From positions 62,001-126,000 of the forward strand of contig NZ_JAGGQJ010000011.1 of the NCBI RefSeq assembly GCF_018613325.1: a DNA stretch of 64,000 nucleotides, written 5' to 3'. A program made the translations under genes and the position numbers. Source of the stretch: Bacillus sp. ISL-34. Lineage in GTDB: Bacteria; Bacillota; Bacilli; Bacillales; DSM-1321. Positions 33,070 through 42,593 of the stretch are shown in pieces; within the stretch, counting starts at the first letter, position 1; each line of letters opens with the position of its first letter. Below the pieces are notes generated by a model that saw only the letters and a list, made by a program, of their open reading frames with translations, ran no database searches and had not been told where the DNA came from.

Positions 33070-34482
33070 TTACTTAACATTCTTCTTGGAAGCGTTTGTG
33101 TTCTCTAACGAACCAATCTCTTGTTTGTTTATTGCATTTTCAGCCCTATTCAACTTTTTTCTCATTGGGAAGTAGTACAAGACAGCTGGGACAACCAACC
33201 CAATGATCCAAGCGATATCTGCCCCTTCAAATGCCTTGGCTATCGGTCCTACATAGAATGAAGTGTTTATAAAAGGGATTTCCGCCAAGATTGATACAAG
33301 AAATGCCATACAAGTAATCCAATTTATTTTGCCATATTGACCGTTCACATCAAAAATATCTTTTACATTGTAATGGCCATGTCGCAGCAAATAATAATCA
33401 ACAAGGTTGATGGATGTCCAGGGAATTAAAAAATAACTAATGAAAAAGATGAAATTCAAGAAAAAGGATAGGAAATTACTCTGACCTAGTAAGCATAAAA
33501 CGGTTCCTGCCACTGTTACACAGAATATCATTCCTATTCTTACTTTCGGTGTGACCTTTAATTTAATGAACGGTTCAATTGTTGTTATCGTTGCCATGAA
33601 TGCCCCATATAGGTTAAAGACATTTATAGCAAGCTGTCCAAAGATGATTATAAAGAACATGATTATAGCAAAATTTCCAAACAGGCTGGCCAAGTTACCG
33701 CCAGAGTGATCAAGGAAGTTAGGAATCGCAATGGTTAAGGTTGCTCCTAATGTCATCATCCATATAGTCCCGATGACTGTGCCGGCGTAACTATACCAAA
33801 AAGTATGGGCCGTGGGTGTGGTTATCGGTAGATATCGAGAGTAGTCTGCAACGTAGGGGGCATATGCCAATTGCCATGTAGCAACCATACTCACCGCCAG
33901 CAAAAACACCGGTAAATCCAAATTTCCTATTGCCCAACTGCCTGCCGGAACTTGCAATTGGAAGACTATATATGTAGCTACAATATAGATACAGAGAGAC
34001 GCCCAGGACAATAATTTTTGCATTTTATGAATTAAGTTATAGCCATAAATGGTGGCCACGAAACAAAGAACATTTAAAAGTATAATGCTCCATGTTTGGT
34101 CGATCTTTGTTAAGCTGCTTAAGGTTTGTGCTGCAAGCAAACCGCTGCTGGCAAAGAAGCCTAAATAGACAAACATTACGAGAAACAAGGGGAAGATGGC
34201 TCCGATTACACCAAATTGAGCCCGGCTTTGGATCATTTGCGGAATTCCGAGTTGAGGTCCTTGAGCTGAATGGGAGGCCATGAAAATGGCGCCTAATAAG
34301 GTACCGACAATTATTGCTGCCAGACTCCAAAATAAATTAAGACCTAATGTAATGGGCAATGCCCCGGTTACAAGGGTGGTAATATGCATATTTGCCCCAA
34401 ACCAAATTGGAAATAAATCACGGGCCTTACCATGGCGTTCATCAGCCGGAATATATTCTATACTGCGAGTTTCAACTTTCAT
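33070..34482 (-). CDS. NCS1 family nucleobase/cation symporter
   Basis: A 470-residue NCS1 transporter with about twelve hydrophobic segments. The family imports nucleobases, hydantoins, allantoin, thiamine or pyridoxine with sodium or protons. Characteristic parts are RDLFPIWFGANMHITTLVTG near residue 22, IPQMIQSRAQFGVIGAIFP, and YVADYSRYLP in the middle. ATG 34482 lies six bases after AGGGGG. It diverges from a GntR regulator and the flavin monooxygenase cluster and shares a 20-bp operator with it, so it probably imports the compound that the cluster degrades. Confidence 0.92.
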   Translation of the reverse strand: MKVETRSIEYIPADERHGKARDLFPIWFGANMHITTLVTGALPITLGLNLFWSLAAIIVGTLLGAIFMASHSAQGPQLGIPQMIQSRAQFGVIGAIFPLFLVMFVYLGFFASSGLLAAQTLSSLTKIDQTWSIILLNVLCFVATIYGYNLIHKMQKLLSWASLCIYIVATYIVFQLQVPAGSWAIGNLDLPVFLLAVSMVATWQLAYAPYVADYSRYLPITTPTAHTFWYSYAGTVIGTIWMMTLGATLTIAIPNFLDHSGGNLASLFGNFAIIMFFIIIFGQLAINVFNLYGAFMATITTIEPFIKLKVTPKVRIGMIFCVTVAGTVLCLLGQSNFLSFFLNFIFFISYFLIPWTSINLVDYYLLRHGHYNVKDIFDVNGQYGKINWITCMAFLVSILAEIPFINTSFYVGPIAKAFEGADIAWIIGLVVPAVLYYFPMRKKLNRAENAINKQEIGSLENTNASKKNVK

Positions 34483-34510
34483 CAATTTACCCCCTATCAA
34501 ATTGGTATAC

Positions 34511-34530
34511 TACCATGTACCATGCAAGCT
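34511..34530. promoter_or_regulatory. GntR operator at the NCS1 side (20 bp)
   Basis: TACCATGTACCATGCAAGCT is the exact reverse complement of the sequence at 34795-34814. It begins about 15 bases downstream of the predicted NCS1 -10, where a repressor would block initiation. Confidence 0.85.
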
Positions 34531-34544
34531 TATTTTATAGAATC

Positions 34545-34574
34545 ACTATAATTGTAAGCGTATACAGATGTCAA
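34545..34574 (-). promoter_or_regulatory. Predicted NCS1 permease promoter
   Basis: Minus-strand TTGACA (34569-34574) with TATAGT after 18 bases (34545-34550). Confidence 0.7.
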
Positions 34575-34752
34575 TATTTTCAGAAAAAATAATTTTTAAG
34601 GGAATTATCATAAAATATCCGTTCATTCATCTAGTGCATTTCAATAAATCAGCTTGATTATTGGACTGAATGATTGAAAATATTAAACTTCAGTTTGAAA
34701 ATTGTGGAATAACCTATCTTCGAATAAAAAATAAAATTTTATATTTTTTGAA

Positions 34753-34781
34753 TTGACAGTCTATTTACCATGACCTATAAT
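34753..34781 (+). promoter_or_regulatory. Consensus promoter of the GntR/monooxygenase cluster
   Basis: TTGACA, 17 bases, TATAAT: a full match to the vegetative consensus, followed after 13 bases by the GntR operator. Such a strong promoter would require tight repression. Confidence 0.88.
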
Positions 34782-34794
34782 TGCACTTATCAAG

Positions 34795-34814
34795 AGCTTG
34801 CATGGTACATGGTA
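34795..34814. promoter_or_regulatory. GntR operator at the catabolic side (20 bp)
   Basis: AGCTTGCATGGTACATGGTA, with an internal direct repeat of ATGGTA, is the mirror copy of 34511-34530. It lies around the predicted transcription start of the GntR gene. Confidence 0.85.
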
Positions 34815-35516
34815 CAAACTTTTAAAAAGGAGGGGCTTTACATTACAGCTATCTTAACGTTGGGGATTACGGCTCAGGTTACTAACGCTATACGCGAATC
34901 CATAGTAACTGGAGATTATGAACCAGGACAAAAATTATCTGAAACTGTTTTATCTGAATATTACAAAGTTAGTAGAACCCCTATCAGGGAAGCATTTAAA
35001 CAGCTAGAAAGAGAAGGGTTAGTCGAGATCATTCCAAGGGTTGGAACATGTGTGACAAAACCAACTGAAAAGGAACTAGATGAGTTATTTACTTTAAAAG
35101 AAGTAATGGAAGGGCTTGCAGCGGGTTTGCTTGCAGAAAGCGGGAGTGCAAAAGACATTAATAACCTTAAGCAAGCAGTGTCTGACATGGAGATTGCTAT
35201 GCAAACCTCGGATAAAAAGCTATATGTCGAGGCTAATGAAGTTTTTCATTCAGTCATCCAAGAAGGTGCCAATAACTCTAAATTAAGTTACATGCTAAAT
35301 TTGCTGCTCAATCAAATACCTTATAGACAGTATGTCTTTTTAACCATCGAAGATCCGAATCGCCGTGAGAGATCACTCAAGGAACATCAGGCGGTCTTGA
35401 TAGCTATAGAAAAAGGCAATCGGGAGGAAGCGGAGAAGGCCATGCGAGAGCATGTAAAAGCAAGTGGAATGCAGCTTAAAATGGACATAGCAAAAAAACT
35501 TGGTCAAAAAAAGTGA
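34809..35516 (+). CDS. GntR family regulator, FadR subfamily (FCD domain)
   Basis: A winged-helix regulator with the GntR reader AIRESIVTGDYEPGQKLSE, VSRTPIREAFKQLEREGLV and a C-terminal all-helical FCD ligand domain (ELFTLKEVMEGLAAGLLAES; NEVFHSVIQEGANNSKL). The start is uncertain. ATG 34809 lies inside the operator and lacks a ribosome site, giving 235 residues. A strong AAAAAGGAGGGG lies exactly six bases before an ATT codon at 34842, which would give 224 residues and a normal GntR N terminus. It probably represses itself, the downstream enzymes and the divergent NCS1 permease. Confidence 0.85.
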   Translation: MVQTFKKEGLYITAILTLGITAQVTNAIRESIVTGDYEPGQKLSETVLSEYYKVSRTPIREAFKQLEREGLVEIIPRVGTCVTKPTEKELDELFTLKEVMEGLAAGLLAESGSAKDINNLKQAVSDMEIAMQTSDKKLYVEANEVFHSVIQEGANNSKLSYMLNLLLNQIPYRQYVFLTIEDPNRRERSLKEHQAVLIAIEKGNREEAEKAMREHVKASGMQLKMDIAKKLGQKK

Positions 35517-35536
35517 TATGAGGGGGAATGAGTTTT

Positions 35537-36682
35537 ATGAAATTTGGAATCTTTGCAAATCTTGCAGGACAGGGAAGACATGATGAGTATTATAAAGTGC
35601 TGGATGAAGCCCGTGAGCAAGCTATTTACTGTGATGAAAATGGTTATGATTCGATTTGGTATACAGAACACCACTTTGGTCATGAAGGAAATGAACTGAT
35701 TTCTAACCCGATCTTAATGGGTGCTGATATTGCTGCACGGACAAAGAACATTCGAATTGGCCAGGCTGCCAATGTCGCCACTTTCTGGCATCCACTGCGT
35801 TTGGCGGAAGACATAGCAATGCTTGATCAGTTAAGTAAAGGACGTGTGGAAGTTGGCCTGGCTCGTGGATTATACGGACGGGAAGCGGCTAATTTAAACA
35901 CTTTGGCAGATCCAGCAAATCAAGAACAAAACCGTGCACTGTTTGAAGAAACATTGGAAATTTTGAAAAAGGCTTGGTCAAACCGTTTCTTTTCACATCA
36001 AGGTGACATCTATCAATTTCCTCCTAAAGGTTTAAAGTGGAGTCACCCTATGAGTCCATCAACTTCGGAATTTATGGATATGGAAAAAGGCGAAATTGAT
36101 AAAATTTCCCTTATGCCTAGACCTTACCAGCAATCACTTCCGCTGTGGCAAGTAATTGATTCACCGCGTTCTATTGAATTGGCCGCGGAGAACAATATAC
36201 AAGGAATGTTTTGGATGCCGACCGTCAAAGAATTAAAAGGCCGTTTTGAACTGTACCGTGAAAGGGCTTCCAAAGCCAAAGGCTATGAAGTTCCACTTGG
36301 TCAGGGTATTGCTTTAGTGCGTGATGTATATGTAGCGGAAACGATGGAACAGGCTCGTCAAGATGCGGCAGAAGCAGTATTGAACAATTATCGCTGGATT
36401 TGTCACTGGAGGGGGCTAAGCAACCTTATGGATCCAGGCGAAACTGTGAAAGAAGGACAGGAATTGAACTATGAATTCTTACATCCTAGAAATTTATTGT
36501 TTGGTACACCTGACTATGTAGCAGAGAAAATTCAAGAATTGAAGGAAGAGCTGAATTTAGAAACATTACTGCTTTGGGTTAACCATAATGGTTTGCCACA
36601 TGAAAAAATGATGAAAAGTTTAAAATTGTTCACGGAAGAAGTTATGCCAAAATTCACAAAAACTAAAATGGGGGTAATGTAA
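35537..36682 (+). CDS. LLM-class flavin-dependent monooxygenase
   Basis: A 381-residue bacterial-luciferase-like TIM-barrel monooxygenase that uses reduced FMN supplied by a partner reductase. Signature regions are MKFGIFANLAGQGRHDEYY, YDSIWYTEHHFGHEG, GQAANVATFWHPLRLAEDIA and GRVEVGLARGLYGRE. Relatives such as RutA cleave pyrimidine rings and others open pyridines or desulfonate alkanes. A matching FMN reductase lies 2.9 kb downstream in the same run, giving a complete two-component system. ATG 35537 is well spaced from GAGGGGG; ATG 35528 is too close. Confidence 0.92.
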   Translation: MKFGIFANLAGQGRHDEYYKVLDEAREQAIYCDENGYDSIWYTEHHFGHEGNELISNPILMGADIAARTKNIRIGQAANVATFWHPLRLAEDIAMLDQLSKGRVEVGLARGLYGREAANLNTLADPANQEQNRALFEETLEILKKAWSNRFFSHQGDIYQFPPKGLKWSHPMSPSTSEFMDMEKGEIDKISLMPRPYQQSLPLWQVIDSPRSIELAAENNIQGMFWMPTVKELKGRFELYRERASKAKGYEVPLGQGIALVRDVYVAETMEQARQDAAEAVLNNYRWICHWRGLSNLMDPGETVKEGQELNYEFLHPRNLLFGTPDYVAEKIQELKEELNLETLLLWVNHNGLPHEKMMKSLKLFTEEVMPKFTKTKMGVM

Positions 36683-37261
36683 ATGTTAGATATTCGTAAA
36701 GTGTATACAGCTATTGAAGAAACACGTATTGAGGGCGGTAAAAAAGTAGAGAATCCGATCAAGATGATAATAACTATGGCTGTTATCAAAAACCCATGGG
36801 CTGGCAGAGGGTATGTTGAAAATTTAAAACCGGAAATTGACGAATATGCACCGCAAATTGGCGAACTATTAGTTGCTGAACTATTTAAGCACATTGATTC
36901 AGCCGATGATGTCGAGGCTTTCGGCAAGGCAGCTGTCGTGGGAGTGGATGGGGAAGTTGAACATGCATCAGCATTTATCCATACTTTGAAATTCGGTAAC
37001 AAATTCCGGGACGCCGTGCAAGGAACGAGCATCTTGAGCTTTACTAATAAGCGTGGTGGCGCTGGAACTGCGGTGCTCATACCGATGGTACATAAGACAG
37101 ATGATTCTGAACGCTCTCATTTCATTACATTTGAAGCTTCTATACCTGATGCACCGAGGGCTGATGAGATCGTTGTTGCTATTGGGGTTTCTACAGGAGG
37201 ACGTCCTCATCCGAGAACAGGAAACAGGCATCAAGATATGGTTGAAATGGGGCTGGTTTAA
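36683..37261 (+). CDS. Amino acid synthesis (AA_synth, DUF1185) family protein
   Basis: A 192-residue protein of the AA_synth/DUF1185 family. Distinctive stretches are AVIKNPWAGRGYVENLKPEI near residue 34, GEVEHASAFIHTLKFGNKFR and GVSTGGRPHPRTGNRHQDM near the end. Despite the family name, no reaction is established as far as I know. The start directly abuts the stop of the monooxygenase gene, and its own stop overlaps the hydrolase start, so it is tightly coupled to both and probably handles the monooxygenase product. Confidence 0.87.
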   Translation: MLDIRKVYTAIEETRIEGGKKVENPIKMIITMAVIKNPWAGRGYVENLKPEIDEYAPQIGELLVAELFKHIDSADDVEAFGKAAVVGVDGEVEHASAFIHTLKFGNKFRDAVQGTSILSFTNKRGGAGTAVLIPMVHKTDDSERSHFITFEASIPDAPRADEIVVAIGVSTGGRPHPRTGNRHQDMVEMGLV

Positions 37262-38061
37262 TGCCAACTACATTGCATGGAAAAGATTCGCTTCATTATG
37301 AAGAGAAAGGGATTGGTGAATCGCTTATCTTTATTCATGGTGTTGGTCTTGATCTTACGATGTGGGAAGAACAAGTTGAAGATTTGTCGAAACATTTCCG
37401 TGTTATCACATATGACATGGTTGGGCACGGAGGATCTGAGCATCCTCCGGGTCCTTATTCCCTTTCACAGTTTGTTGAGCAGTTAGCAGAACTCATGAAT
37501 CACTTACAAATTGAGAAAAGTCATATTATTGGTTTCTCCATGGGTGGTATGGTCGCTCAGGCATTTGCATTAAAATATCCGGATAAAGTGAAAACGCTAA
37601 CAATCATGAACGCAGTGGCCAATCGGACGAAGGAACAGAGGAATGCCGTTTTAAAAAGGGTTGAAGAAGTGAAAAGAACAGGACCTTTTGCAACAATTGA
37701 ACCAGCCATTAAACGCTGGTTTAATCTTGAATTCTTAAATTCACAGGAAGAAACCGTCAGTAAAATTCGGGAAAGACTTCAGACAAACGATGCTGCTTCC
37801 TATTTAGCGGCCTATACACTTTTTGCAACTGCGGATGACGAGTTGTGGCCACGGATCCACCAGATCAATATACCGACCCAAATTATAACAGGGGAGCATG
37901 ATGTAGGTTCAAATCCCGAGATGGCGAGACAAATGCATGAAAAGATTGTGCATTCAGAACTCATGATAGTGCCTAATATGAGGCATATGCTACCGATAGA
38001 AGGATCCAAAATAGTGAACGAAGCCATTAGGTCGTTTATTGAAAGACAAACAAAGGGGTGA
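37261..38061 (+). CDS. Alpha/beta hydrolase
   Basis: A 266-residue hydrolase with the oxyanion motif FIHGVGLDLTMW, the nucleophile elbow GFSMGGM (Ser near 97), acid in TGEHDVGSN (Asp near 218) and His in NMRHMLPIE (near 243). In a catabolic cluster with a flavin monooxygenase it resembles RutD-like or ring-cleavage hydrolases that open esters, lactones, carbamates or C-C bonds; which one cannot be read here. The start codon overlaps the preceding stop (TAATG), suggesting coupled translation. Confidence 0.9.
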   Translation: MPTTLHGKDSLHYEEKGIGESLIFIHGVGLDLTMWEEQVEDLSKHFRVITYDMVGHGGSEHPPGPYSLSQFVEQLAELMNHLQIEKSHIIGFSMGGMVAQAFALKYPDKVKTLTIMNAVANRTKEQRNAVLKRVEEVKRTGPFATIEPAIKRWFNLEFLNSQEETVSKIRERLQTNDAASYLAAYTLFATADDELWPRIHQINIPTQIITGEHDVGSNPEMARQMHEKIVHSELMIVPNMRHMLPIEGSKIVNEAIRSFIERQTKG

Positions 38062-38067
38062 CTCGAT

Positions 38068-39552
38068 GTGAAAGAGCTGAAGAAATATCAGATGTATATA
38101 AACGGGGAATGGGTAGAATCATCAAGTGGTGAATATTTCGATAGTTATAACCCTGCAACCGAAGAAGCTTGGTGTCAAGTCGCCAAAGGGAATGCTGAAG
38201 ATGTAAATCGTGCCGTTCAATCTGCGCATAATGCATTCTTGCATTCAGGATGGACCAATATGACATTCACAGAGCGGGGGCGTCTGGTTAGAAAGCTTGG
38301 AGAGCTGATTGCTATTCACTCTGAAGAGCTTGCGAAAGTCGAATCACTGGATAATGGGAAATTAATACGCGAAATGCGCGGTCAGGTAAAATATTTACCT
38401 GAATTTTTCTATTACTATGCAGGACTAGCAGATAAAATCCATGGGCAAACCTTACCGATTGATAAAAAAGATATGTTCGCCTTTACATCCAAAGAGCCGC
38501 TGGGGGTAGTAGCCGCCATTACTCCTTGGAATTCCCCTCTTTATTTAACAACCTTGAAGCTTGCACCTGCTCTTATAGCAGGAAATACCATAGTCATTAA
38601 ACCTTCGGAAATGACTTCGGCCTCTCTATTGGAACTGGTGAAACTGGTTGAAGAAGCTGGTTTTCCACCTGGTGTTGTCAATGTAGTCACCGGCTTTGGA
38701 ATGCCTGTAGGCGATACACTCACCTCACATCCTCTTGTAAGGCGTGTGGCCTTTACGGGAGGTTCAGAATCAGCAAGGCATATTGTTCGTAATTCGGCTC
38801 AAAATTTTGCACAGGTTTCACTGGAACTTGGAGGGAAATCACCGAATATCGTGTTTGAGGATGCTAATCCGGATAATGCGGCGATGGGAATCATAGCTGG
38901 TATATTTGGTGCTTCAGGACAAAGTTGTGTGGCTGGTTCTCGTGCATTTTTACATGTGGATATTTACGATGAAGTGATGCAAAAACTCGTTGACCGTGTA
39001 TCGAAAATTAAGATCGGTGATCCTTTTCAAGATGATACGGAAATGGGACCGCTGGCAACGCAAGCCCAATTGGAGCGTGTCCAAAAATACGTAGCTATCG
39101 GGTTGGATGAAGGTGGAAAACTTGTTTGCGGAGGTAAAAAGCCTGAATATTTAGAGAAAGGATGGTATTTTGAGCCCACGATCTTCGAGCATCACGATAA
39201 CGATTCCCGCATTACTAAAGAAGAAATATTTGGTCCTGTGTTAAGTGTTATCCCTTTTAAAGATGAAGAAGAGGTTATTCAATTAGCAAACAGTACTGAT
39301 TACGGATTAGCAGCTGGAATTTGGGTGAGTGATATTGCTAAAGCTCACCGGGTCGCGAAAGCTATACGTGCTGGAATCGTGTGGGTGAATACCTATAGAA
39401 GTATTTCACCAATTGCTGCAATCGGCGGATCTGGCCTAAGCGGTTATGGAAGAGAAGGCGGTTATGAAGCGATTCATGAATATATGCAAGATAAAGTGGT
39501 TTGGATCAATACATCATCTGAACCGATTCCTGACCCTTTCATAATGAGGTAG
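38068..39552 (+). CDS. Aldehyde dehydrogenase 1
   Basis: A 494-residue NAD(P)-dependent aldehyde dehydrogenase. MYINGEWVESSSGEYFDSYNP begins the fold; the general base Glu lies in LELGGKSPNIV (near 254) and the nucleophile Cys in GASGQSCVAGSR (near 288). It probably starts at GTG 38068 after GGGGTG. Similarity within the family is broad, so the substrate is open; in this setting a semialdehyde formed after ring cleavage is likely. It lies seven bases after the hydrolase gene. Confidence 0.92.
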   Translation: MKELKKYQMYINGEWVESSSGEYFDSYNPATEEAWCQVAKGNAEDVNRAVQSAHNAFLHSGWTNMTFTERGRLVRKLGELIAIHSEELAKVESLDNGKLIREMRGQVKYLPEFFYYYAGLADKIHGQTLPIDKKDMFAFTSKEPLGVVAAITPWNSPLYLTTLKLAPALIAGNTIVIKPSEMTSASLLELVKLVEEAGFPPGVVNVVTGFGMPVGDTLTSHPLVRRVAFTGGSESARHIVRNSAQNFAQVSLELGGKSPNIVFEDANPDNAAMGIIAGIFGASGQSCVAGSRAFLHVDIYDEVMQKLVDRVSKIKIGDPFQDDTEMGPLATQAQLERVQKYVAIGLDEGGKLVCGGKKPEYLEKGWYFEPTIFEHHDNDSRITKEEIFGPVLSVIPFKDEEEVIQLANSTDYGLAAGIWVSDIAKAHRVAKAIRAGIVWVNTYRSISPIAAIGGSGLSGYGREGGYEAIHEYMQDKVVWINTSSEPIPDPFIMR

Positions 39553-39611
39553 TGGAAATTTGAAGGGGAGGCGCTTTTTATCAAAGGGTTTTAATAAGGA
39601 GGAAAAGTGAA

Positions 39612-40172
39612 ATGAAATTACTGGGAATTTCAGGAACGGTAATAGGAACAAAGACGAAAGTCGTTATTGAAAAGGTTTTAGAGGAAGTTAAGAATAACCA
39701 CCCTGATATCGAAGTCGAACTGCTTGATTTGAAAAAGTATGATGTTCAATTTTGTGATGGCCGTAATCCGTCCACATACACTGGAGATACGAAAAAAGTA
39801 ATTGATATCGTTACCTCTGCAGACTTTTACATTATAGGAACACCAATATTCCAAGGGTCAATTACGGGTGCTCTTAAAAACTTATTTGATTTAATCCCCC
39901 CTAAGGATTTCCGTAATAAAGTAATGGGTCTTGTGGCTACCGGTGGAACCTACCAGCATTATTTAGTCATTGAAAATCAGCTGAAACCTATAGCCAGTTA
40001 TTTCCGCGCATTTGTTGCACCTGGCTCTGTTTATGCTCATAATGACCATTTCAATCCACAAAATGAACTGGTTGATGAGGAAGTGTTGGAACGTATTTCA
40101 ATGCTGAGTGAAGAAGTCGTGTTTATGCAAAAAGCATTGAAGAGTACTAAACCAGAGCATCAATTAAGCTAA
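39612..40172 (+). CDS. NADPH-dependent FMN reductase
   Basis: A 186-residue flavodoxin-fold reductase. The N-terminal LLGISGTVIGTKTKVVIEKV binds the FMN phosphate; GTPIFQGSITGALKNLFDLI and VATGGTYQHYL are standard for the family (SsuE/MsuE-like). It would supply reduced FMN to the luciferase-like monooxygenase at 35537. ATG 39612 follows AAGGAGG. Sixty bases separate it from the aldehyde dehydrogenase upstream. Confidence 0.9.
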   Translation: MKLLGISGTVIGTKTKVVIEKVLEEVKNNHPDIEVELLDLKKYDVQFCDGRNPSTYTGDTKKVIDIVTSADFYIIGTPIFQGSITGALKNLFDLIPPKDFRNKVMGLVATGGTYQHYLVIENQLKPIASYFRAFVAPGSVYAHNDHFNPQNELVDEEVLERISMLSEEVVFMQKALKSTKPEHQLS

Positions 40173-40247
40173 AAGATTTACAAAATGAAAACACTCCAGC
40201 TGAAGTGCATTTCAATTAGCAGAGCTAAGTAGCAAGGAGGGGACAAA

Positions 40248-40553
40248 TTGCTATTAGATGTAGAAGAGATAATAAACTTAACTGATTTATCCTTTATTAA
40301 AGTTTGTAATGAACAGTATGGGATTAATAGAGGGGTTTATAATACCATTGATGCTTGGTTTTATAAGCAAGGAATTAGTAACATTCTAGAAAGGCGCAAT
40401 AGTATATTATATTTCCTTGAATTTATTAAGCGAAATTCCGGGAGTGAAAATAACCACTGTAAATTTGGTCACGGTGGCTTAACGACAAAATTAGAAGAGT
40501 ACTATTTTCCAAGAATGGAATCGACTTTTGTAAAAATTGCCTCTAATCTTTAA
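40248..40553 (+). CDS. Uncharacterised 101-residue protein within the catabolic cluster
   Basis: I do not recognise this protein (start MLLDVEEIINLTDLSFIK; GHGGLTTKLEEYYFPR near the end). It looks soluble and helical, with one cluster of His and Cys residues (NNHCKFGHGG near 71-80). It starts at TTG 40248, seven bases after AAGGAGGGG, and that strong ribosome site is the best evidence that it is translated. It sits between the FMN reductase and the second aldehyde dehydrogenase, so a role in the pathway is plausible but unproven. It could also be a remnant of a longer gene. Confidence 0.55.
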   Translation: MLLDVEEIINLTDLSFIKVCNEQYGINRGVYNTIDAWFYKQGISNILERRNSILYFLEFIKRNSGSENNHCKFGHGGLTTKLEEYYFPRMESTFVKIASNL

Positions 40554-40590
40554 ATGAAGCACATACAAAGAGTGAAGGGTGGCTGGGAAC

Positions 40591-42033
40591 ATGACAATCA
40601 TAGATAAAGTAGAAAAAAAACATTTACTAATTAAAGGGGAATGGGTGGAGGCCAAGGAGTATAGTCCGCTTCGATCTCCTTATTCAGGGGAAGTCATAGC
40701 TGAAATCCCCCTGGCCACAGACGAAGAAACCGACCAAGCTATTGAAGCGGCGCAAAAAGCTGCTAAGGTGATGGCAAAAATGCCAGCCCATCAACGTGCG
40801 AAAATCCTGGAAACATTGGCCCATCTTCTTGAGGAGCGCGCGGATGAAGCCGCCCAAATCATATCTATTGAATCAGCAAAGCCGGTTACAACCGCGAAGG
40901 GCGAGGTGGCGCGAACAATTGAAACCTACAAGTTTGCCGCTGAAGAAGCGAAACGAATTCATGGAGAAACGCTTTCGCTGGATGCCGCCCAAGGCGGCGA
41001 AAACCGACTCGGTTACACTGTACGTGAACCGATTGGAGTGATTGGGGCCATAACACCTTTCAATTTCCCCATGAATCTAGTCGCTCATAAAGTAGGTCCT
41101 GCCATCGCCGCAGGAAATACAATTGTATTAAAGCCAGCAAGCCAAACCCCTCTATCCTCCCTGTTCATCGGAGAACTATTACAGGAAGCCGGATTGCCTG
41201 CAGGAGCATTAAATGTGGTCACAGGTGGAGGAAGAGTGGTTGGAGACAAGTTGGTCACTGATTCCAGAGTAAGTATGATTACTTTTACAGGCAGCCCAGG
41301 AGTCGGAATTGGCATCCGCAATAAAGCCGGATTGAAACGAGTGACGCTGGAGCTGGGATCCAATGCAGCTGTCATCATTGACCGGGGTGTAGATATTGAT
41401 AAGATCATTTCTCGTTGTGTGACTGGAGCATTTTCCAACCAAGGACAAGTATGTATTTCTTTGCAAAGGGTTTATGCCCATGAAGAAGTCTACGATCGCT
41501 TTGTTGAAAAGTTTATAGAAGCAACGAAACTATTAAAATTAGGTGATCCGCTTGATCCAGAAACGGATGTTTCCGCTTTGATCTCCCCGAATGATGTTGA
41601 AAGAACCATCAATTGGATAGAGGAGGCGAAACAAGGTGGAGCCAAGATTGCAACAGGTGGAATGGCGGAAGGCAATATCCTTCATCCGACAGTCATATTA
41701 GATGCAGATACCCATACAAAGGTATCCTGTCAAGAAGTGTTTGCCCCAATCGTTTTGATTAACAAGATTCAATCTGTAGAACAAGCAATTGATTTGGTGA
41801 ATGATTCAATTTATGGCCTGCAAGCAGGGATTTATACAAACGATGTACGTACAGCACTGGATGCAGCAGAAAATTTACAAGTTGGTGGAGTCATGATCAA
41901 CGACATTCCGACATTCCGTGTGGATAATATGCCGTACGGTGGAGTGAAGGAAAGTGGAACTGGCCGTGAAGGATTAAAATATGCAGTTGAAGAAATGACA
42001 GAAATGAAGCTGGTTGTCTGGAACCGAAATTAG
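40591..42033 (+). CDS. Aldehyde dehydrogenase 2
   Basis: A 480-residue aldehyde dehydrogenase. The Glu base is in VTLELGSNAAVI (near 253) and the nucleophile Cys in SNQGQVCISLQR (near 287). The SNAAVI segment in place of the usual GGKSP groups it with the glycolaldehyde, phosphonoacetaldehyde and sulfoacetaldehyde branch rather than with enzyme 1 at 38068. The two enzymes therefore probably act on different aldehydes. ATG 40591 follows GAAGGGTGG by eight bases. It is followed within 13 bases by the YciI-like gene. Confidence 0.9.
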   Translation: MTIIDKVEKKHLLIKGEWVEAKEYSPLRSPYSGEVIAEIPLATDEETDQAIEAAQKAAKVMAKMPAHQRAKILETLAHLLEERADEAAQIISIESAKPVTTAKGEVARTIETYKFAAEEAKRIHGETLSLDAAQGGENRLGYTVREPIGVIGAITPFNFPMNLVAHKVGPAIAAGNTIVLKPASQTPLSSLFIGELLQEAGLPAGALNVVTGGGRVVGDKLVTDSRVSMITFTGSPGVGIGIRNKAGLKRVTLELGSNAAVIIDRGVDIDKIISRCVTGAFSNQGQVCISLQRVYAHEEVYDRFVEKFIEATKLLKLGDPLDPETDVSALISPNDVERTINWIEEAKQGGAKIATGGMAEGNILHPTVILDADTHTKVSCQEVFAPIVLINKIQSVEQAIDLVNDSIYGLQAGIYTNDVRTALDAAENLQVGGVMINDIPTFRVDNMPYGGVKESGTGREGLKYAVEEMTEMKLVVWNRN

Positions 42034-42046
42034 GGAGTGGAAAAGC

Positions 42047-42301
42047 ATGGCTTATTATGCAGCAATTTTACATATGATTGATGCTGAAAAAAATATAGAA
42101 GTGCGTCCACATCATATCGAGTATTTAAACGAACTTGATCGTAAAGGGAAGGTCTTTGCAAGAGGGCCTTTTGCGGATGGCTCGGGCGGTTTGGTTGTCT
42201 ATATTGCAGACACATTTGAAGAAGCACTCTCATTAGCGGAAAATGATCCCCACGTTGTACATAAGGTGCGGAGACTGGAATTAAAAGAGTGGAACATTTA
42301 A
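42047..42301 (+). CDS. YciI-like protein
   Basis: An 84-residue YciI/dimeric alpha-beta barrel protein. HMIDAEKNIEVRPHHIEYLN supplies the conserved His near residue 23-24; GKVFARGPFADGSGGLVVYI and DPHVVHKV complete the pattern. Relatives act as small isomerases, dehydrochlorinases or lactone-handling enzymes in degradation pathways. The ATG at 42047 follows GGAG. It is the last gene of the cluster, followed by a terminator. Confidence 0.87.
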   Translation: MAYYAAILHMIDAEKNIEVRPHHIEYLNELDRKGKVFARGPFADGSGGLVVYIADTFEEALSLAENDPHVVHKVRRLELKEWNI

Positions 42302-42377
42302 TAATGAACTTTATAAGTGCGTGTCAATGCAATGAATAAAACCTGGAGCTGGAGACAGTTCCTTCATTAATAAGGAG

Positions 42378-42399
42378 GGTTGCCGAGGCAACCTTTTTT
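42378..42399 (+). terminator. Terminator of the catabolic cluster
   Basis: GGTTGCC-GA-GGCAACC followed by TTTTTT, about 75 bases after the YciI-like gene. Confidence 0.88.
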
Positions 42400-42593
42400 A
42401 TGTGCAAATCAACTCGGTAACGAAAAGACAAAGTTATACCATAAGTGAGTAAAGATATTAACCAGACCTTACTACCCTTTAATAACTGCCAGTTGTTATA
42501 CTGTGAAAGTATTAGTGCAAATAGGTTCATAGAGCGAAATAAAAAAAGCTTCGTGAAGTTAAACAGGCAGGTATTACACCGATATTTAGGTTT

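Follow-up and report, generated by a model that had tools for sequence, protein, structure and literature searches.

We analysed a window of 64,000 nucleotides from Bacillus sp. ISL-34 (contig NZ_JAGGQJ010000011.1, positions 62,001 to 126,000), in which positions 33070..42301 hold a divergent gene cluster of ten open reading frames (ORFs). The direct results behind this account are the genes present and their conservation, the sequences of the promoters and repeats, and the relationships of the encoded proteins. On the minus strand lies a gene for an NCS1 permease (33070..34482, with the listed ORF reaching 34500; PF02133, 307 bits). The plus strand encodes a GntR/FadR-type regulator with an FCD domain (34842..35516, with the listed ORF starting at 34770; PF00392 and PF07729); a luciferase-like monooxygenase (LLM) that is a candidate ring-opening oxygenase (35528..36682; PF00296); a DUF1185 or AA_synth protein (36683..37261; PF06684, 228 bits), an alpha/beta hydrolase (37261..38061; PF00561) and an aldehyde dehydrogenase (ALDH1; 38068..39552), which resemble TgnF, TgnD and TgnC, respectively, of the trigonelline (tgn) pathway of Acinetobacter baylyi; an NADPH-dependent FMN reductase (39612..40172; PF03358); a helical protein of 101 amino acids (40248..40553); a second aldehyde dehydrogenase (ALDH2; 40579..42033; PF00171) that is a candidate succinate semialdehyde dehydrogenase (SSADH); and a YciI-like protein (42014..42301; PF03795, 42.5 bits). 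Intergenic gaps of the plus-strand genes are tight, at −20 to 75 bases, and an intrinsic terminator of the operon follows on the same strand at 42371..42400 (hairpin of −15.5 kcal/mol, T6). A Pfam scan recovered Transp_cyt_pur, GntR with FCD, Bac_luciferase, AA_synth, Abhydrolase, two Aldedh, FMN_red and YCII, confirming, together with the ORF list of the window, the gene set and strands of the original prediction.

The best-scoring sites in a promoter scan were the operon promoter on the plus strand (34753-34781; TTGACA-17-TATAAT, 12 of 12 consensus positions) and the NCS1 promoter on the minus strand (34574-34545; TTGACA-18-TATAGT, 11 of 12); promoter-like sites overall were not commoner than in shuffled sequences (24 versus 26.3). 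Directly downstream of each divergent promoter stands the direct repeat TTGCATGGTACATGGTA, present as an exact copy at 34511..34527 on the minus strand, at the NCS1 promoter, and at 34798..34814 on the plus strand, between the operon promoter and the GntR gene. Allowing up to three mismatches, the window contains two matches to the repeat, compared with 0.24 expected, and these two are the only exact copies in the whole draft genome; the repeat is therefore likely to be an operator for the GntR regulator. Two more sites in the genome match at two mismatches. The copy at the NCS1 promoter recurs in all eight other genomes with the divergent NCS1 gene. Examination of a two-mismatch site elsewhere in the own genome yielded nothing, and none of this gene set was seen beside operator-like sites elsewhere in the G033 genome.

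The promoters also bear on the start codons. The listed ATG of the GntR gene, at 34770, falls between the −35 and −10 boxes, upstream of the −10, so the gene starts later, the probable start being an ATT at 34842 preceded by the ribosome site AAGGAGGGG. Conserved GntR coding seems to begin at that ATT, and a TTG farther in is a TTA in G014. The ATT start, if correct, would mean weak translation. For NCS1, comparison with homologues suggests that translation probably starts at the ATG at 34482 and not at the TTG at 34500.

The gene order from GntR to YciI is kept in 10 of 36 same-genus genomes, which exceeds chance, and an LLM of 93–100% identity was likewise found in 10 of the 36. No such LLM was found in 65 other relatives, where the best match was 42% over 163 residues. 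Three LLM surveys covered 299 genomes each, with at most six candidates scored per genome: across the order, the own genome and the 42% match alone passed E 1e-30; across the phylum, the own genome alone passed; and across the phylum of A. baylyi, two matches (34% and 33%) passed E 1e-40. DUF1185 is present in 12 of 43 genomes of the family, namely the ten cluster genomes and G013 and G023, both of which have a 48% version outside such a cluster. A divergent NCS1 gene accompanies nine of the ten clusters; G010 has a downstream NCS1 only. In G024, whose genome is 87% complete, the NCS1, LLM and ALDH1 ORFs are split, perhaps through assembly error. The nearest tree row to the LLM of one same-genus genome is an LLM on a P. 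frigoritolerans plasmid, and on this ground the genus is probably Peribacillus.

The pathway had been put forward as undescribed, a claim that does not stand: the same set of functions makes up the tgn pathway of A. baylyi. The source study of that cluster is Perchat et al. 2018, which PMC7913881 and PMC8269262 cite. TgnC is the aldehyde dehydrogenase of the pathway and TgnD its hydrolase. In strain DSM 14961 (L029), where tgn names were assigned by gene set and not by ADP1 records, the row comprises DUF1330, GntR, DUF1185, hydrolase, flavin reductase, LLM, ALDH, NCS1, an unscanned ORF, SSADH and CMD. Both systems have GntR, NCS1, DUF1185, an alpha/beta hydrolase, an ALDH, a two-component flavin oxygenase and a second ALDH. 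The gene order differs, and in the window the 101-residue and YciI-like proteins take the place of the DUF1330 and CMD genes of A. baylyi. Passages of PMC8269262 describe the opening of the trigonelline ring by TgnA/TgnB. According to PMC7913881, TgnF of A. baylyi, a homologue of a DUF1185 protein, stimulates the oxidation of succinate semialdehyde that depends on TgnE; its authors were unable to demonstrate this kind of stimulation with their own protein. Trigonelline is merely named as an A. baylyi metabolite in an excerpt of PMC4213383, and an excerpt of PMC7356986 deals with a different pathway, that for 4-hydroxypyridine.

Loci of the tgn type were taken as the best 80 of 548 relatives of an Acinetobacter TgnB, some of them cut by contig ends; in these, DUF1185, TgnB and TgnC were each present in 80, the reductase in 78, the hydrolase in 76, GntR in 56, NCS1 in 49 and SSADH in 42. 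DUF1185, described in the original prediction as an extra relative to the Rut pathway, is a regular member of tgn-type loci. Plasmid clusters with the tgn set were found in Sinorhizobium medicae, Rhizobium etli, Agrobacterium fabrum, Burkholderia multivorans, Leisingera and Arthrobacter. The cluster on plasmid pDCT5 of Arthrobacter dokdonellae resembles the window in GntR (47%), ALDH (54%), DUF1185, hydrolase, NCS1, reductase and SSADH, and differs in having a TgnB-like LLM (50% identical to TgnB of A. baylyi), two copies of DUF1185, a tautomerase and a riboflavin kinase. The window GntR scores 167 bits against the regulator of the Arthrobacter cluster, with the next at 110 bits (83 hits, loci examined). 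On A. fabrum pAt (L017), a divergent tgn-like cluster adjoins a glycine-betaine type ABC transporter, and its substrate may differ. At L183 and L184, a DUF1185-hydrolase-ALDH-LLM set is linked to genes of the CoA type and to an ABC importer and forms a further lineage of the module, perhaps with another lower pathway. A single strain of Paraburkholderia tagetis has two separate tgn-type loci (L073 and L100), one of them with an amidase and another NCS1 type.

Several window proteins retain a likeness to this system. The DUF1185 protein is 52–57% identical to tgn-linked DUF1185 proteins and forms the first branch of the ring-cleavage-cluster clade (100/99), outside the TgnF subclade proper. Fourteen residues are shared by at least 97% of the 92 rows that represent proteobacterial loci and by all 9 same-genus rows, and are present in at most 30% of 12 others. 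Among 17 hits of ALDH1 in A. baylyi, TgnC is the best (52%; runner-up, 40%), and ALDH1 groups, as a sister lineage, with TgnC and the Parasedimentitalea and Aminobacter cluster enzymes (98/97). The hydrolase is 30–38% identical to TgnD-type hydrolases and has 10 of 15 TgnD-specific residues, defined with an outgroup of three rows only; its tree is weak. It retains a presumed triad (S93, D214, H242) as well as R122, R133, R152 and W153, residues that may be common in the superfamily. By these comparisons DUF1185 belongs with the tgn-linked lineages, and ALDH1 and the hydrolase do so less clearly. Because DUF1185 persists with the oxygenase and reductase replaced, and where no TgnE was seen nearby, its role may come later than ring opening, close to the step of ALDH1 or of the hydrolase, and would then differ from the reported stimulation of TgnE.

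The window NCS1 shares 35% identity with the sole NCS1 found in A. baylyi, a permease encoded within the tgn locus, and 58% with one encoded next to a tgn locus of Paraburkholderia. In four of the ten genomes (G010, G014, G017 and G029) the cluster is followed by genes for an isochorismatase-type amidase and a second NCS1 (14608-16980 in L134; also L133, L135 and L137), and a copy of the repeat precedes this addition in G014, G017 and G029. The amidase-NCS1 pair, at 44% and 65%, was also found in two of the 80 tgn loci, both in Paraburkholderia and near copies of each other. Priestia filamentosa has a solitary NCS1 that is 67% identical to the second one of G014.

We favour, with moderate confidence, the reading that this is an inducible catabolic locus of a soil member of the Bacillaceae that is trigonelline-like in its working and is not a member of the tgn pathway. 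The oxygenase weighs against it, as do some of the accompanying proteins: the oxygenase should set the substrate, yet by its sequence it is not of the TgnB type. The window LLM is 26–30% identical to LLMs of tgn loci, lower than its identity to two LLMs of other clusters (32% and 37%), and its type falls outside the TgnB clade in two trees. Constraining it to one clade with TgnB costs 29 log units in an approximately unbiased (AU) test with p = 0.004, a value that we take as a guide, since branches are long and the first tree had already been inspected when the grouping was made. It has 10 of 90 TgnB-specific residues, compared with 47 of 90 in the A. fabrum cluster LLM; with leave-one-out scoring it has 7–9 of 70–78, compared with 4–12 for ten unrelated LLMs. 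ALDH2 is 34% identical to TgnE and lies outside the TgnE clade. ALDH1 has 67 of 108 TgnC-specific residues, and relatives without DUF1185 nearby have 56–59; such relatives, of 54–55% identity, occur in Bradyrhizobium, in Rubrobacter and on a P. frigoritolerans plasmid, and ALDH1 is therefore weak evidence of TgnC function. An earlier contrast of 67 versus 18 of 108 residues, with ALDH2 as the control, was dropped as proof because ALDH2 is too distant. In Pseudomonas luteola the amidase-NCS1 pair occurs with no such cluster around it, so that the pair is neither specific to tgn nor proof of the substrate.

The reductase also departs from tgn, being of family PF03358 and not of the TgnA-type family PF01613 of A. 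baylyi; a same-order and a same-genus genome each have a relative of it (59% and 72%) with another LLM nearby. Because these two defining parts fail, the locus is not assigned to tgn, and plain tgn orthology was rejected on the oxygenase. New here are an oxygenase and a reductase not of the TgnB and TgnA families, and the placing of the 101-residue protein in a family associated with flavin enzymes. Alternatively, the oxygenase might open no ring at all. In that case the LLM would carry out a Baeyer-Villiger oxidation or a dealkylation of some other compound, and the hydrolase and dehydrogenases would process a lactone or an acyclic aldehyde; we consider this improbable. In its favour, two LLMs (32% and 36%) among the nearest ones beyond the genus-specific set adjoin lactonase-type and ribB-type genes, 3,6-diketocamphane monooxygenase gives an alignment over residues 26–377 of 384, and ALDH1 relatives exist without ring-cleavage genes; it is at odds with a DUF1185 protein of the ring-cleavage clade and an NCS1 gene under the same repeat.

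The different lineage of the oxygenase also leaves room for the same ring-opening logic applied to another N-heterocycle, such as pyridine, nicotinate, N-methylnicotinamide or homarine, which is possible but rather doubtful. Related DUF1185-ALDH-hydrolase-LLM clusters come with other transporters and downstream genes (a betaine ABC transporter in A. fabrum, CoA-type genes in Parasedimentitalea and Aminobacter), and the amidase that accompanies 4 of 10 clusters is suggestive of an amide. Against this, import by NCS1 would suit a charged or polar ring and not volatile pyridine, DUF1185 and ALDH1 are nearest to tgn-linked lineages, and, for homarine, passages of PMC8269262 argue that TgnA/B would not open it. 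A further system of this kind is the pyrABCDE pyridine cluster of Arthrobacter sp. 68b, in which PyrA/PyrE reportedly cleave pyridine. It reportedly combines a two-component oxygenase, two aldehyde dehydrogenases, an amidohydrolase and succinate as the end product, in likeness to the pathway proposed here.

For the favoured, trigonelline-like reading, we infer the reactions, the substrate, the repressor and the role of the 101-residue protein as follows. The best guess for the substrate would be trigonelline or a close pyridine carboxylate. GntR would repress both divergent promoters through the common repeat until an inducer arrives. The permease would bring in a carboxylate of the pyridine or pyridinium type, with trigonelline (N-methylnicotinate) the likeliest candidate, and the FMN_red reductase would provide FMNH2 to the luciferase-like oxygenase, with the 101-residue protein helping FMN to reach or stay on it. 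The oxygenase would open the ring next to the nitrogen, giving an N-formyl enamine with an aldehyde, which ALDH1 would oxidise. The alpha/beta hydrolase, with DUF1185 acting near it, would then release formate, an amine and CO2 and leave succinate semialdehyde, which ALDH2 would convert to succinate. The chemistry suggested in the original prediction, of uptake, FMNH2-dependent ring opening, hydrolysis and two aldehyde oxidations to a dicarboxylate, fits this scheme. No study of trigonelline use by Bacillaceae was found by title among the literature matches listed. Among those listed, the one paper that names both trigonelline and Peribacillus, PMC11858476, detected trigonelline in trace amounts in two of its hemp extracts and saw P. 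simplex grow well on hemp extracts, and it draws no connection between these observations.

A superficially similar set of LLM, hydrolase and nucleobase-type permease is found in the Rut pathway. There, an LLM opens the pyrimidine ring with FMNH2. That the window encodes a Rut-like pyrimidine pathway is highly improbable, as had been anticipated: RutA, RutB and RutC are absent among the NCBIfam matches listed for the ten proteins, the hydrolase scores 91 bits on the RutD model against a cut-off of 238.5, and the reductase is of the FMN_red type.

The 101-residue protein had been described as an orphan, a status overturned by relatives near flavin enzymes in 12 further loci inspected. A good ribosome site precedes its ORF, on which purifying selection acts (dN/dS of 0.07–0.24 in eight of nine comparisons and 0.46 in G024), and its structure model has five helices (mean pLDDT 78, pTM 0.72). 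The window protein had no match in Pfam, NCBIfam or the PDB; the relatives tested fell into no Pfam or NCBIfam family and gave chance scores only (M11L, E 0.15; HisJ, E 0.05), and PHROGs matches of the protein (E 0.009 and 0.04) were judged to be chance. Relatives of 41–54% identity were found at L157, L162 (41 residues only), L163, L167, L168 and L185, with genes for an LLM, a flavin reductase, FMN_red or a stand-alone riboflavin kinase (PF01687) near these six, a biased set in that L185 was chosen for an ALDH and the others for an LLM. Of 72,556 plasmid records searched directly for the protein, 13 contain it, at 16 places in total, and all of these belong to four genera of the Bacillaceae. 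In 7 of these 13, a single place per record was inspected, and a gene for an FMN-related enzyme was near in 7 of 7. Riboflavin kinase, flavin reductase and LLM genes are near the relative on the P. frigoritolerans plasmid, and LLMs are near it on two Priestia plasmids and in Niallia (about 30 bases away); SsuD is separated from it by three genes on a Cytobacillus plasmid, and UbiX and UbiD flank it on two Priestia plasmids. As a control, 50 kb elsewhere on one such plasmid contained 44 annotated features, of which one was FMN-binding and none an LLM.

The simplest reading of these neighbourhoods is that the 101-residue protein has a flavin-handling role. The family appears as a small helical Bacillaceae family at window positions 40248-40553 and at L163, L167, L168, L185 and L191-L196. 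At L185, on the P. frigoritolerans plasmid, five annotated LLM genes lie within 15 kb, in addition to the riboflavin kinase and flavin reductase. A literature search for such a protein gave one paper, with a title on another subject.

A bolder proposal, which we make tentatively, is that the locus represents a second, independently recruited class of pyridine ring-opening flavin oxygenase, set in a DUF1185-ALDH-hydrolase lower pathway, together with an unnamed Bacillaceae family of 101-residue proteins that would carry or guard FMN for luciferase-like, FMN-reductase and UbiX/UbiD systems. If the trigonelline-like reading is true, a trigonelline-type pathway would extend to Bacillaceae, and its ring-opening step would be swappable with the remainder kept. 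The function of DUF1185 would become testable, because a protein retained as the oxygenase and reductase change should act after ring opening. The 101-residue family could supply two-component monooxygenases with a flavin-handling part that has gone unrecognised.

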